DNA of 64,000 nt from an uncultured Bacteroidota bacterium (GTDB taxonomy: Bacteria > Bacteroidota > Rhodothermia > Rhodothermales > Salinibacteraceae), in contig CAJXLV010000015.1 in NCBI GenBank assembly GCA_913056185.1, positions 1 to 64,000 of the forward strand. Reading direction: 5' to 3'. Each line of letters opens with the position of its first letter. The stretch's first letter is position 1. The translations under genes and the position numbers were made by a program. Under the pieces are notes generated by a model that was given only the letters and a program-made list of their open reading frames with translations, did not search any database and was not told the origin of the DNA. Shown in pieces: positions 21,371 through 26,465 of this stretch.

Positions 21371-22714
21371 ATGAGTGAGCTCAATCCTGTTTCACTGATC
21401 GCCGCGAAGCGAGACGGCCAGGCGCTGTCCGATGCGGAGCTGAAGGGCCTGATCGACGCGTACACACAGGGCACGGTGCCGGACTACCAGATGAGTGCGT
21501 TTCTGATGGCGGCGTACCTCAACGGCCTGTCGGCGACGGAGGCGGCAGCGCTCACCGATGCCATGCTGGCCTCGGGCACGCACATCGACCTGTCGGACGT
21601 GCCCGGCACCAAGGTGGGCAAGCATTCGACGGGGGGAGTGGGGGACAAGGTGTCGCCCATTCTGGTGCCGCTTGTAGCGAGCTGTGGCGTGCCCGTGGCC
21701 AAGCTGAGCGGGCGCGGGCTGGGCCACACCGGGGGCACGCTCGACAAGCTGGAGGCCATTCCGGGGTTTCGTACCGACTTGAGTGTGGAGCAGTACCGGG
21801 AGCAGGTGGCCTCGGTGGGGGGGGTCATCTCGGGGCAGACCGGAGAGGTCGCCCCGGCCGACAAGAAGCTGTACGCGCTGCGCGATGTGACGGCGACGGT
21901 GGAGTCGATCCCTCTGATTGCGGCCTCCATCATGAGCAAGAAGCTGGCGGAAGGCAACGATGCCCTTGTGCTGGATGTAAAGTGCGGCCGCGGTGCCTTT
22001 ATGAAAACCGAGCCTGAGGCCCGTCGCCTCGCCGAAACGCTTGTCGGCATTGCCGCCCGTCACGACACGCCGGGGGTGGCGGTTCTCACGAACATGGACG
22101 TCCCCCTGGGGCGGGCCGTGGGCAACGGGCCGGAGATCCGCGAGGTCATCGAGTGCCTTCGTGGGGAGCACGAAGAATCGGCCCTGATGCAGGTGGTCTA
22201 TCGCCTGGCGGGGGAGATGAGTGCCCTGGGCGGGGTCGCGGAGACGCCGGCCGAGGGCATCGCGGCGGCGCGCGCCGCGGTTGAGCGGGGGGACGCCCTG
22301 GAGCGGTTTCGGCGCCTCGTTGCGGCACAGGGCGGCGAGGTCTCTGTGCTCGATGCCTCGGACACGCCCCCCCACGGGGCCCCCGTCGCAGACGTGCCGG
22401 TGCCCGCCGGAGCGGAGGGGTACGTGGCTGATCTGGATGCGTACGCCATTGGGGAGGCGGCCATGCGCCTGGGCGCCGGGCGCCAGGCCAAAGAGGAGCC
22501 GGTAGACCCTGTGGCGGGCCTATCGGGGCTCAAGAAACCGGGCGATGCGGTGGCCCCCGGCGACGTGCTGGCCCGTCTCCACACCGGCGGCACGCCCAAC
22601 ATAGAAGCCGTGAAGGAACGCGTGCAGCGCGCATACACCTTTTCCGAGAGTGCGCCCCCGTCCGCCCCCGCCGTCTACGCACGTCACACCCAGGCAGGAT
22701 GGACGTCCCTCTGA
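21371..22714 (+). CDS. Pyrimidine-nucleoside (thymidine) phosphorylase
   Basis: Reversible phosphorolysis of pyrimidine nucleosides to base and (deoxy)ribose 1-phosphate in nucleoside salvage. The 447-aa product has the family length and fold: the N-terminal helical domain with YQMSAFLMAAYLNGLS, the phosphate-binding KHSTGGVGDKVS, the signature KLSGRGLGHTGGTLDKLE, and the C-terminal PYNP domain with RLHTGGTPNIEAV. The start ATG at 21371 (MSELNPVSLI) gives the family N-terminus. Sequence alone does not tell DeoA from Pdp specificity, so no gene symbol is given. It follows the rpmE terminator as a separate unit. Confidence 0.93.
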   Translation: MSELNPVSLIAAKRDGQALSDAELKGLIDAYTQGTVPDYQMSAFLMAAYLNGLSATEAAALTDAMLASGTHIDLSDVPGTKVGKHSTGGVGDKVSPILVPLVASCGVPVAKLSGRGLGHTGGTLDKLEAIPGFRTDLSVEQYREQVASVGGVISGQTGEVAPADKKLYALRDVTATVESIPLIAASIMSKKLAEGNDALVLDVKCGRGAFMKTEPEARRLAETLVGIAARHDTPGVAVLTNMDVPLGRAVGNGPEIREVIECLRGEHEESALMQVVYRLAGEMSALGGVAETPAEGIAAARAAVERGDALERFRRLVAAQGGEVSVLDASDTPPHGAPVADVPVPAGAEGYVADLDAYAIGEAAMRLGAGRQAKEEPVDPVAGLSGLKKPGDAVAPGDVLARLHTGGTPNIEAVKERVQRAYTFSESAPPSAPAVYARHTQAGWTSL

Positions 22715-22854: not shown

Positions 22855-23634
22855 ATGTCCATTTGGTCCCGCTTTAAGCGTGCAATAAAATCCCTCTTCG
22901 GCGGCGCCGTGTCAGCGATGGAGGATCCCCGCACCATCCTGGAGCAGAACATCCGGGAACTGAACGACCAGGTGCCAGAAATGAACGAAAACATCGCCAC
23001 GGTAAAGGCGAACAAAATCATGCTGGAGAAAGAGGTGGCCAAGACCCAAGACCGTGTGGAAGAGCTGACCAGTCGCATCCGCACGGCCCTACAGTCCGAC
23101 CGCGAAGACATTGCCCGGAAGTATGCCAAGCGGTTGGAGGACCAGAAAGAGAGCCTGGAGCGTACCCAAGAGCAACTGAAAGGCGCCGAGCGGGCCTACG
23201 AGAAGGCCCTGAAGGTCAAAAAAGCTTTCATGCGGGAGAAGGAGAAGAAGATTCAAGAGGCGAAAGACGCCCTCCGCCAACACGAGCGGGCCCAGTGGCA
23301 GGCCGAGATTGCCGACACCATGGAGCAGTTTGAGGTGTCGGGCCTCGACCAGACGCACGACGAAATGGTGCGCCAGCTCGACGAAGAGTCGGCCAAGAAC
23401 CAAGCGCGCATGGAGATGGCGCTCGACTCGGTGGATACGGAAGCGATGCAGATCGAAGAAGACGCCGAAGAGCTTCGCGCCCAGCAGGTGGTCGATGAGT
23501 TTAAGGCCGAAATGGGGATGGAGGAGAAGACGCGGGCCGACGACGAGACCGAAGAAACGATTGATCTGCCCGAAGGCGAGGAACGAGAAGAGCCGTCGAA
23601 GACCATCGGCCAGCAGCGCAGCACGTCGGAGTAA
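22855..23634 (+). CDS. pspA: PspA/IM30 (Vipp1) family membrane-stress protein
   Basis: Peripheral inner-membrane ESCRT-III-like protein that oligomerises on stressed membranes. The 259-aa product starts with an amphipathic helix (MSIWSRFKRAIKSLFGG), followed by long charged coiled coils (for example EDPRTILEQNIRELNDQVPE and RAYEKALKVKKAFMREKEKK), as in the family. Beyond the family core there is a strongly acidic tail of about 45 residues ending SKTIGQQRSTSE. The ATG at 22855 gives the helix; an upstream TTG does not. It heads a likely three-gene operon with the next two coiled-coil genes. A CCCCC-GCTTA-GGGGG hairpin lies at 23665-23679, without a T-run. Confidence 0.9.
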   Translation: MSIWSRFKRAIKSLFGGAVSAMEDPRTILEQNIRELNDQVPEMNENIATVKANKIMLEKEVAKTQDRVEELTSRIRTALQSDREDIARKYAKRLEDQKESLERTQEQLKGAERAYEKALKVKKAFMREKEKKIQEAKDALRQHERAQWQAEIADTMEQFEVSGLDQTHDEMVRQLDEESAKNQARMEMALDSVDTEAMQIEEDAEELRAQQVVDEFKAEMGMEEKTRADDETEETIDLPEGEEREEPSKTIGQQRSTSE

Positions 23635-23729
23635 TCAGCATTGGGTTGCGACTGCCTGTCCGAGCCCCCGCTTAGGGGGGAATGTGTGCGCCCTGGTTCG
23701 CTCCCTGCATCCTGATCCGCGCCCGCGCC

Positions 23730-24194
23730 ATGACTGACGACGAATTCCAACACATCAAGGAGGAAGAAAAGAACCATCTCCGTGCCCAAAAACGCCTCCA
23801 GCGCACGCTCGAGGCGCTGAAGCAGCGCACGGAGGGGGAAGGCGTTGTGCAGCAGATGAAGCGGGGAGCCGCGCGGTTGCTCGACGAGACCGAATCCCTT
23901 GTCGACGCGTTGCGCCGAACCGTGGTCCAGGATCAGGCCCGCTTTGAAGTCGCCCTCGACGACGAAAGGCCGGAGGCGGACGCCCTTCGCGAGGCCGAAG
24001 AAGCGCTTCGGGAAGAGCGGGCCGAAGCGCTTGTGCGCCGAATGAAGGCCGAAGAAGAGAAGGCGGCTCGGTCTCGTCCGTCCATCTCCGAAGACGACAA
24101 GGCGTCCGACGAGCGGCCCGACTCCCCCCCGGCGCAAGAGGGCCCCGACAAGACCATTGGTCGCATGGGGGATCTCCGCTCCGAGGAGTCCTGA
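23730..24194 (+). CDS. Acidic coiled-coil protein next to PspA
   Basis: No known family recognised. The 154-aa product is almost entirely charged helix (EEKNHLRAQKRLQRTLEAL, VQQMKRGAARLLDETESL and REAEEALREERAEALVRR), with no signal peptide or membrane span. It ends in a disordered acidic tail, PPAQEGPDKTIGRMGDLRSE. The KTIG motif near the end also occurs at the end of the PspA upstream (SKTIGQQ), suggesting a shared C-terminal interaction motif or a PspA-derived origin. The start ATG at 23730 is the first sensible one, 95 bp after pspA; the membrane-protein gene follows after 52 bp. Confidence 0.7.
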   Translation: MTDDEFQHIKEEEKNHLRAQKRLQRTLEALKQRTEGEGVVQQMKRGAARLLDETESLVDALRRTVVQDQARFEVALDDERPEADALREAEEALREERAEALVRRMKAEEEKAARSRPSISEDDKASDERPDSPPAQEGPDKTIGRMGDLRSEES

Positions 24195-24246
24195 GCGGCC
24201 CTTCTCGCGTGTCGCATCCAGCCTCTCATGTACCGCGCCCCATTCC

Positions 24247-25185
24247 ATGGACGACATCAACTACACCAAGGAGGCTCTCTTCAACACCTGGAACCTCGTG
24301 TTCCTTATTGCCACCGTGGCTGTAGCGGCGGCGCTTGGTGTGGTAGGAGCGCTGCCCACCTGGCTGCCCGAACTGATCCTGGTGGTGGGGGGCGGCGCCG
24401 AGCTGGTGTACCTGGGCGTGATGCCCCGCCACAAGCGGTTCCGGCGGTACATCCGTGCCGAGAAGCGGGCGGAACAGCACCAGGCCCCCTCGCAGCGCGA
24501 AATCTTCAGCCAGCTTCGGAACCAGAGCCAGCGGCGCTACGCCAAGCTGCGCAAGCTGAAGGACCAGATCCAGGCCAACTACCAAAAGCTCAGCTACGCC
24601 TCGCAGGGCATTCTTACCAGCCACGTCGACAAGATCGATGGGCTGCTCGACTCGTACCTCGATCTCCTGCACCAGCGAGAGCGGTACCGGGACTTCATGG
24701 AGAGCGCGACAGAAAAGCGCATCCTGGACGACATCGAGGCACTGAAAAAAGACATGGCGGACGACCCCGATCGCGTACGGGCGGTGAAGGAGCGGCGGCT
24801 GAAGGTGCTGGAGCGGCGCCTGGCCCGCTTCCGCAAGGCGCATGAGAACCTGGAAATCATTGGGGCACAACTCAGTACCATCGAGGATGTCGTGCGTTAC
24901 ATCCACGAGCAGTCGTGGACCCTGCAAAACCCCGAGGAGGTGACGGCCCAGCTGGATACGCTCATGCGAGAGGTGGAGGAAACACAGAGCTCCATCCGCG
25001 AAATTGAAGATGTGTTCGCGGCGCCGTCCGACTATATCGGCGAGGAGGACGAAGACCTGGAGGCGCTCGATGCAGAGCTGGATGCCGCGGCGGAGGGAGC
25101 TCTTGGTCCGACGGGGGACGAGGACGCGTCAACCGAGGAGCGCTCCGCCCGCTCCCGCGCACGCGAGTCGCGGCAGAGATCCTGA
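24247..25185 (+). CDS. Membrane protein with two N-terminal helices and a coiled-coil domain
   Basis: Family not recognised. The 312-aa product has two close transmembrane segments (about residues 15-36, WNLVFLIATVAVAAALGVVG, and 38-57, LPELILVVGGGAELVYLGV), then a cytoplasmic-looking helical region of about 200 residues with Arg/Lys-rich heptads (SQRRYAKLRKLKDQIQANYQ), and an acidic, then Arg-rich tail. Topology and context (third gene after pspA) suggest a membrane anchor or partner for the PspA system, by analogy with PspB/PspC or LiaF, but there is no sequence similarity to those. The start ATG at 24247 follows the previous stop by 52 bp. It converges on a hypothetical gene. Confidence 0.72.
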   Translation: MDDINYTKEALFNTWNLVFLIATVAVAAALGVVGALPTWLPELILVVGGGAELVYLGVMPRHKRFRRYIRAEKRAEQHQAPSQREIFSQLRNQSQRRYAKLRKLKDQIQANYQKLSYASQGILTSHVDKIDGLLDSYLDLLHQRERYRDFMESATEKRILDDIEALKKDMADDPDRVRAVKERRLKVLERRLARFRKAHENLEIIGAQLSTIEDVVRYIHEQSWTLQNPEEVTAQLDTLMREVEETQSSIREIEDVFAAPSDYIGEEDEDLEALDAELDAAAEGALGPTGDEDASTEERSARSRARESRQRS

Positions 25186-25234: not shown

Positions 25235-25840
25235 CTACGAAGAGTTCGTCGTCGTGCCGTCCCCCGATGCCATCGGCGGCTCGCCGCGGCGTCCGTACGC
25301 CAGGACCAGCTTAAGGTGGGCGACGGCCGGGGCGACCAGCTCCAGCGACTCAAGGCGTTCTTGGGGCATTTCGGGGAGGCGCGGTGGGCTCACCCGGCCC
25401 ATCCACAACTCCATGGCGTCTTGCATGGCGTGCGGCCCCGGAAACTGCCCGCTCGGCAGGTGGGTGGCATAAAACGCGCGCTTGTTCTCCAGGCGCTCGT
25501 GCACCTCTTCGGCGACCCCTGCCAGCTCCGGGTGTTCGTCGGCCACCATGGCCTTGCCGATCAGGTAATTGCGGTAGGTGAAAGGCGTATCCAGAAGGGC
25601 CTCCACAATGGGCGAGACAAGCGCCTCTTCGTCCGCCAGGCCCACCTCCGCAGCGCGGGCGGTGGCAACCGATACGAGAGAGAGCGTCTCTTCCGCGATC
25701 AGTTCAGGGTCGCTCCCCTCCATGTCGCCCACACTCTGCAGCACCGCGTGGGTCAGGTCTTGGGTGAGGCCCAAAACGCCGACGGTAGCAAACGACGTGA
25801 ACCGAGCCACACGAGCGCTGGGAGGGAAGGCGTCGGGCAT
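25235..25840 (-). CDS. Hypothetical helical protein
   Basis: Not recognised. The 201-aa product is mainly alpha-helical by composition, with LIAEETLSLVSVATARAAEV, LVSPIVEALLDTPFTYRNYL and HAMQDAMELWMGRVSPPRLP; no signal peptide or transmembrane helix is evident. The start ATG at 25840 (MPDAFPPSAR) is chosen because codons further upstream read as Arg/Cys-rich non-coding sequence. Its stop lies 49 bp from the convergent PspA-operon end. moaC lies upstream in the same direction (124-bp gap). No functional statement is possible. Confidence 0.65.
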   Translation of the reverse strand: MPDAFPPSARVARFTSFATVGVLGLTQDLTHAVLQSVGDMEGSDPELIAEETLSLVSVATARAAEVGLADEEALVSPIVEALLDTPFTYRNYLIGKAMVADEHPELAGVAEEVHERLENKRAFYATHLPSGQFPGPHAMQDAMELWMGRVSPPRLPEMPQERLESLELVAPAVAHLKLVLAYGRRGEPPMASGDGTTTNSS

Positions 25841-25964
25841 GAGGGGAGAGGCATTGGGAAGAGATCGAGCGGATGGAGAGGGCCCCCGCGCATGGGAGCA
25901 GGCCCTGGCGCATTGCAGATGCGCGAGAGAACAGGCCCCTCTTCGGATGCATCCGGGGGAGACG

Positions 25965-26465
25965 TCAGGACACGCTCTCCGATTCACTTTTCCAGTTGCC
26001 ACTCTGCCCCCCCGTCTTGGCCCGCAGGTGCACGTCGCCGATTTGGATGTCCTTCGTGACCGACTTGCACATGTCGTAAATTGTAAGTGCCGCAATAGAG
26101 ACCGCCGTCAGCGCCTCCATTTCCACCCCCGTGACGCCGAAGGTTTTTGCAAAGGCGCGGATGTCGATGGCCTGCTCCTCAGCATCGAACGTGAAATCCA
26201 CCTCGACTCCATTGATTGTCACGTCGTGGCAGAGGGGAATGAGCTTGTCCGTTTGCTTCGCGCCCATAATCCCGGCAATTTGAGCCGTGGTGAGTACATC
26301 TCCTTTCTCGATGTCGTGATTGCGAACGCGCCGGAAGGCCTCCTCGCCAAGGTACACGCGCCCGGCGGCCACGGCAGTGCGAGCAGAGTCCGGCTTTCGG
26401 GAGGCATCCATCATGTGGACGCCTCCTTGGGCCTCCGGCGGGGTAAGCGTAGAAGAGTCAGCCAT
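25965..26465 (-). CDS. moaC: Cyclic pyranopterin monophosphate synthase MoaC
   Basis: Molybdenum-cofactor enzyme that converts the MoaA product (3',8-cyclo-GTP) to cyclic pyranopterin monophosphate. The 166-aa product has the family length. It shows MMDASRKPDSARTAVAAGRV, KQTDKLIPLCHDVTINGVEV, and GVEMEALTAVSIAALTIYDM followed by the catalytic-Lys region CKSVTKD. The start ATG at 26465 gives the standard N-terminus; open sequence further upstream is not conserved. No moaA, moeA or molybdoenzyme gene lies nearby, so the pathway is split over the genome or incomplete here. Confidence 0.95.
   Translation of the reverse strand: MADSSTLTPPEAQGGVHMMDASRKPDSARTAVAAGRVYLGEEAFRRVRNHDIEKGDVLTTAQIAGIMGAKQTDKLIPLCHDVTINGVEVDFTFDAEEQAIDIRAFAKTFGVTGVEMEALTAVSIAALTIYDMCKSVTKDIQIGDVHLRAKTGGQSGNWKSESESVS

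Follow-up and report, generated by a model that had tools for sequence, protein, structure and literature searches.

The window analysed here, a 64,000-nucleotide stretch of Bacteroidota DNA, harbours three consecutive genes on one strand: pspA and two genes whose products are referred to below as P2 and P3 (Table 1). The window is Salinibacter-like, with the nearest relatives of P3 located on contigs from Salinibacter, Salinivenus and related MAGs (63-85% identity). A first-pass annotation had described three genes lying in one direction, and the coordinates agree, with intergenic gaps of 95 bp between pspA and P2 and 52 bp between P2 and P3. Among 68 non-redundant loci from relatives, the corresponding median gaps are 12 bp and 10.5 bp and, in 23 of the loci examined, P2 and P3 overlap; co-transcription is therefore likely in these relatives. 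A promoter and terminator scan of the plus strand returned no terminator-like site between the three genes and no promoter, an outcome that is uninformative although compatible with a single transcript. The conserved upstream neighbour, PyNP, is not considered part of the module and is retained in the module-loss lineages G317 and G380 described below. On the other side, a 286-aa reading frame at 25235-26095 on the minus strand faces the cassette and has no Pfam match.

Table 1. Features of the pspA-P2-P3 locus (window coordinates)
Feature	Position	Strand	Basis
Pyrimidine nucleoside phosphorylase (PyNP), conserved upstream neighbour	21380-22714	+	Pfam, synteny
pspA, divergent Rhodothermia-type PspA/IM30 (ESCRT-III superfamily), 259 aa	22855-23634	+	Pfam PF04012, E 1.2e-19
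KTIG motif, PspA residues 249-252, within the acidic C-terminal tail	23599-23610	+	Read from sequence
P2, half-PspA paralogue, 154 aa	23730-24194	+	Family-to-family hhalign
KTIG motif in the P2 tail, residues 141-144	24150-24161	+	Kept in 64/65 orthologues
P3, membrane-anchored helical protein, 312 aa	24247-25185	+	No family match
Two predicted TM helices of P3, residues 14-33 and 39-61	24286-24429	+	AlphaFold2 helices, hydrophobic sequence

The pspA product is the sole PspA_IM30 protein of the genome and matches the profile over its whole domain (residues 2-219; 71.2 bits against a cut-off of 33.9). All Rhodothermia PspA proteins are divergent, scoring profile E-values of about 1e-12 to 1e-22, those of other Bacteroidota classes falling mostly between 1e-32 and 1e-55.

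Conservation of the cassette and the nature of its partners

The order and orientation of pspA and P3 are the same in 68/68 non-redundant loci, and P2 lies between them in 65; in the other three, P3 directly follows pspA. This regularity argues that the arrangement is not due to chance. A single-sequence search recovered P3 in 62 of 247 genomes of the phylum, comprising every member of the class sampled and none outside it, whilst a profile search recovered it in 98/395, made up of 97 of the 99 Rhodothermia genomes and one outsider, G280. The order of the triad is thus conserved across the class Rhodothermia and is not confined to one species, and this distribution supports the earlier suggestion of a membrane module in which PspA is paired with a coiled-coil protein anchored in the membrane. 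In two loci, L071 (genome G065; split into 100 and 197 aa) and L063 (G104; one TAA), P3 is broken by a stop, possibly reflecting sequencing errors or fresh decay.

P2 had been put forward as a soluble adaptor resembling none of the known partners. Comparison of the P2 family with the Rhodothermia PspA family, made after trimming the KTIG tails, gave an hhalign probability of 99.2 (E 6.5e-19) over PspA columns 96-255, reversed-sequence controls reaching probabilities of 0.2-0.3. The two families have in common the signatures E[AV]RL[ED]xA[LM]DS and QxKxEMG. As judged by this profile comparison, P2 duplicates the C-terminal half of PspA, and the idea of an unrelated, independent adaptor is rejected. 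It spans the equivalent of late α2/α3 to α5 plus the tail, and lacks α0 and most of the α1-α2 hairpin; alignment is to the C-terminal half only, so that the complete PspA core (α0 and the α1-α2 hairpin) is not present. Among the matches listed for the 42 members of the P2 family, none is to the PspA_IM30 profile and, within the reach of profile-level comparison, none is to Snf7 (Pfam); searches of Pfam, NCBIfam and the PDB gave no convincing match for P2. The AlphaFold2 model of P2 is a single helix (residues 3-114; pTM 0.43), and a Foldseek search with it returned no matches, although a model consisting of one long helix says little.

P2 therefore does resemble a known protein, PspA itself, unlike P3, which matched no family in Pfam, NCBIfam or the PDB. 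The AlphaFold2 model of P3 (mean pLDDT 87.3, pTM 0.71) contains two N-terminal hydrophobic helices, at residues 14-33 and 39-61, with long helices after them. Conserved across the family are an N-terminal INYTKEAF..WNL segment, the two TM helices and the cytoplasmic helical region. A relationship to SLATT-type 2TM effectors was considered and set aside (E 0.21 only). It has also been considered whether P3 could itself be a divergent Snf7/ESCRT-III protein, or a membrane-anchored, BAR-like curvature scaffold. Ravi et al. 2024 (PMC11237479) place a Snf7 homologue in such a neighbourhood and describe, in other settings, Snf7 homologues that have a TM segment; in addition, VIA-align superposes P3 on BAR/F-BAR domains with Z of about 10-10.8 over 160-180 residues. 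However, a Z of 10 lies inside the helical-bundle background, which reaches about 13, the comparison of P3 with the PspA profile gave a probability of 0.0, the best Foldseek match was insignificant (E 0.2), and there was no PDB match and no Snf7 (Pfam) match among those listed for 36 P3 family members, a search with profile-level reach. Kinship of P3 with PspA or Snf7 thus lacks profile-level support, and the reading of P3 as either a divergent Snf7/ESCRT-III protein or a BAR-like scaffold is considered quite improbable.

The shared KTIG tail

PspA ends in SKTIGQQRSTSE and P2 in DKTIGRMGDLRSEES, both containing KTIG, which confirms the similar acidic tails reported in the first-pass annotation. 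A K[TS][ILVM]G motif close to the C-terminal end is present in 61/68 PspA and 64/65 P2 proteins, against a shuffled-tail background of 1.2% and 0.7%; neither the PspA core nor P3 ever contains it, and some P2 proteins carry two copies. Counted by locus, at least one tail motif is present in 67 of 68 (58 in both proteins, six in P2 only and three in PspA only), the exception being L009. PspA proteins from other classes, in which the ATPase described below was not found, lack the motif (0/30). The divergent PspA of G280 ends in KKEIGPQ, a possible variant of it.

A pattern scan for KTIG[R/K] tails in the Salinibacter ruber-like genome G147 yielded seven matches and, besides PspA and P2, no supported gene ending in such a tail. 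One of the others is internal to a longer FtsA-like protein, two lie in open frames of 191 and 38 codons that are unsupported as genes, and the remaining two are on the minus strand with no gene assigned. Beyond an acidic linker, P3 proteins tend to terminate in a basic sequence of the S-R-V-[RK]-E type (25150-25182 in the window, and in orthologues). These ends are similar in style to PspA ends (QRT.SE), possibly constituting a second shared short motif.

A double-AAA+ ATPase with the same distribution

In G280, whose assembly is fragmented (420 contigs, 3% contamination), the P3 homologue is directly upstream of a gene whose 614-aa product carries a C-terminal AAA domain. Relatives of this protein were present in all seven Rhodothermia genomes first tested and, at E <= 1e-40, the ATPase was found in exactly the same 98/395 genomes of the phylum as P3 and in no other. 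In Balneolales the genes follow one another on one strand in the order pspA-P2-P3-ech-corC-AAA, with the ATPase gene located beyond two intervening genes; in the loci examined these encode an enoyl-CoA hydratase (ech) and a CNNM/CorC-type transporter (corC; e.g. L046:5877-8014). In Rhodothermales the ATPase gene is unlinked to the cassette, and it stands apart in about half of the class; in the genome studied here it is on another contig (G000:C6:18845-20542, minus strand). Two further features of G280 are recorded. Its ATPase gene overlaps the start of a gene for a 236-aa coiled-coil protein (L127:7702-8412, plus strand), possibly a further partner, of which no relative was found in Rhodothermia loci. 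It also has a second P3 paralogue (L145; G280:C17:281-1183, minus strand), 47% identical to the first and located at the end of a contig, where no partner is recognisable next to it.

The nearest characterised relatives of the ATPase are VAT and Cdc48. Across 41 sequences the second AAA domain conserves Walker A (GPVGTGKT), Walker B (VMIDEAD), an aromatic pore loop (QWQGVTEG) and the arginine-finger region (RPDLMPxDLKRQGR), whilst the first is degenerate, without recognisable Walker motifs. A dedicated AAA+ ATPase accompanies an ESCRT-III polymer subunit in the same genomes, and in Balneolales in the same gene cluster. It is not a Vps4-family ATPase with an N-terminal MIT domain, however, as it has a two-domain, Cdc48/VAT-like organisation and gave no match to MIT. 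Because of this, PspA, P2, P3 and the ATPase do not constitute a Vps4 ESCRT system, but the set may work in a similar way.

As the co-occurrence mostly reflects one class-wide inheritance, the independent information resides in about three losses and one occurrence outside the class, and two of the three loss cases are in small genomes. In G380, PyNP, ech and corC are kept in order, and pspA, P2, P3 and the ATPase gene are gone. G317 has kept PyNP, pspA, ech and corC and lost P2 and P3; all that is left of its ATPase is a remnant, following corC, of the last 69 aa (residues 502-570), and its PspA ends without KTIG. In a tree of PyNP and CorC the two genomes fall in different parts of Balneolales and are not sister lineages: G317 is placed with the L038-L071 group with a support of 1.0, and the grouping of G380 with L052 is probably due to long-branch attraction. 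The third case, L009 (genome G395), keeps P3 and has no P2; the ATPase gave no match at E <= 1e-30, although this is a MAG of unspecified completeness and a gap may explain the absence. Its PspA ends in DPSTGTTDKQETTSG, compared with EPSKTIGKQRTKSE in relatives, and has no KTIG. Thus, where the ATPase has been lost (in L009, apparently) yet PspA retained, the KTIG of the PspA tail has also been lost. Conversely, in family f11 (G018 and G073) P2 alone has been lost, the ATPase is kept and PspA retains KTVG, and therefore the tail tracks the ATPase rather than P2. On sequence evidence that hinges on a single MAG, in which P3 is kept and KTIG is absent, the tail also appears to track the ATPase better than P3.

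These losses bear on whether the ATPase belongs with the cassette at all. Mere synteny with corC is countered by co-loss that spares corC and ech. A broader objection is that the locus is an ordinary PSP-type envelope-stress operon, in which PspA homo-oligomers would act on a lineage-specific anchor, P2 would be a regulatory decoy or cap, and the ATPase would be co-inherited for unrelated reasons. PspA by itself is enough to remodel membranes in vitro (PMC11746142) and half of the class has the ATPase gene unlinked to the cassette, both of which accord with such an operon. It sits poorly with the independent co-loss of P2, P3 and the ATPase around the intervening ech and corC, and with the identical phyletic profiles and the adjacency of P3 and the ATPase gene in G280; we regard it as unlikely. 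On the same evidence, namely the 98/395 identity of P3 and the ATPase, the Balneolales cluster, the G280 adjacency and the coordinated losses, PspA, P2, P3 and the ATPase quite probably form one functional unit; counting against this are the unlinked ATPase gene of Rhodothermales and the two unrelated genes that intervene in Balneolales.

A proposed remodelling machine

We propose that the cassette and the Cdc48-like AAA+ ATPase form a bacterial membrane-remodelling module of the ESCRT-III type, with the KTIG tails serving as a MIM-like handle, a reading given somewhat better than an even chance. In this scheme PspA would be the membrane-bound ESCRT-III polymer. P2, which is without the membrane-inserting α0, would co-assemble with PspA, modifying or capping the polymer and adding extra tails, and P3 would tether the assembly to the cytoplasmic membrane. 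The double-AAA ATPase, with its first domain inactive and its second active, would extract or exchange subunits, much as Vps4 acts on ESCRT-III. For this ATPase the K[TS][ILVM]G tails carried by PspA and P2 would be a short recognition motif, functionally equivalent to the ESCRT-III MIM.

The module is well supported; that the tail is its handle, we infer. This last part of the proposal is put forward because of the loss pattern and the conserved pore loop, by analogy with Vps4 and MIM motifs, and counting against it are the lack of an MIT match in the ATPase and several PspA proteins that have lost KTIG but whose P2 retains it. Recognition of the tails by the ATPase is accordingly proposed only tentatively, at a little below an even chance. 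The tails could instead bind P3, acting as a membrane receptor that recruits PspA/P2 polymers, with the ATPase operating through another contact. P3 is always adjacent, pspA directly precedes it in the three loci without P2, and P3 and the KTIG tail were lost together in G317, all consistent with a receptor; L009, although a single MAG, retains P3 yet has neither KTIG nor P2 nor, apparently, the ATPase, and this alternative is judged somewhat unlikely. Unfoldases typically take hold of short tails borne on flexible acidic linkers. The tails described here fit this pattern, and the second AAA domain is of the Cdc48/VAT type, so that the ATPase might be a housekeeping unfoldase preventing aggregation of P3 or of the PspA polymer, in a quality-control role and not one of active remodelling. 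Alone, this accounts neither for the same tail on P2 nor for the loss of P2 with the ATPase in three lineages, and it is very improbable. The fullest form of the remodelling proposal, namely that Rhodothermia possess a complete ESCRT-III/AAA+ machine in which a Cdc48-derived ATPase recognises the tail of PspA and of half-PspA and P3 is the membrane receptor, is more doubtful and falls short of an even chance.

Relation to known systems

The cassette had been proposed as a possibly undescribed module. In part this no longer holds, as Ravi et al. 2024 (PMC11237479) report that PspA and Snf7 are accompanied in Bacteroidetes by one more coiled-coil gene (CBH24266.1), a triad that is very probably this cassette in Salinibacter ruber M8. 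The identification is based on numbering and spacing: in S. ruber M8, HslVU corresponds to CBH24765/CBH24767 (PMC3989265), which puts CBH24266 in the same number block, and in G147 hslU lies 578 kb downstream of P3, corresponding to about 500 genes at about 1.16 kb per gene, as would be expected of this cassette. Like the present cassette, the triad groups pspA with an ESCRT-III-like gene and a further coiled-coil gene in one neighbourhood. It occupies one sentence of that paper, the main text of which says nothing about a half-PspA origin, the KTIG tail, anchoring in the membrane, conservation across the class or a tie to an AAA+ ATPase. What is new here is the tie of the Cdc48-like double-AAA+ ATPase to the cassette. 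The same paper describes a PspA-associated double-AAA protein with an inactive first domain (e.g. AEY64321.1) and proposes ATP-dependent membrane remodelling. That protein likewise has two AAA domains of which the first is inactive, but was recognised from gene neighbourhoods in other clades, whereas an identical phyletic profile, joint loss and a candidate recognition tail are available here. The main text of Popp et al. 2022 (PMC9239133) mentions neither Rhodothermia nor Balneolales.

In common with the classical PSP (PspFABC) and Lia systems, the cassette has PspA as a membrane effector and a membrane-protein partner in the operon. It differs in that it contains no homologue of PspB, PspC, PspF, LiaF or LiaI, P2 and P3 being different proteins; the earlier observation that neither partner resembles PspB, PspC or LiaF holds, as no such family is among the matches listed for P2 or P3.

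How the bacterial relatives of ESCRT-III, PspA and Vipp1, are disassembled is an open question on which this system bears. According to Liu et al. 2021 (PMC8281802), PspA/Vipp1 have no established Vps4-equivalent ATPase, and Makarova et al. 2024 describe ESCRT systems that contain Vps4 as restricted to archaea and eukaryotes. The class-wide set presented here, which offers a named ATPase, a named motif of four residues and lineages that act as natural loss mutants, allows the question to be tested directly on a small number of purified proteins. The resemblance to archaeal and eukaryotic ESCRT-III with Vps4/CdvC lies in a superfamily polymer with a cognate AAA+ ATPase, paralogous subunits and a short C-terminal motif. 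In contrast, the ATPase is here Cdc48/VAT-like, its first domain is dead and a search for an MIT domain gave no match, the system is bacterial, and it has an extra, membrane-anchored component in P3. The tie between cassette and ATPase across the genomes compared suggests that a two-part machine resembling archaeal and eukaryotic ESCRT-III/Vps4 operates in some bacteria and, if the proposal is correct, it would represent an independently reached bacterial counterpart of the Vps4-MIM relation, thought to be limited to archaea and eukaryotes.
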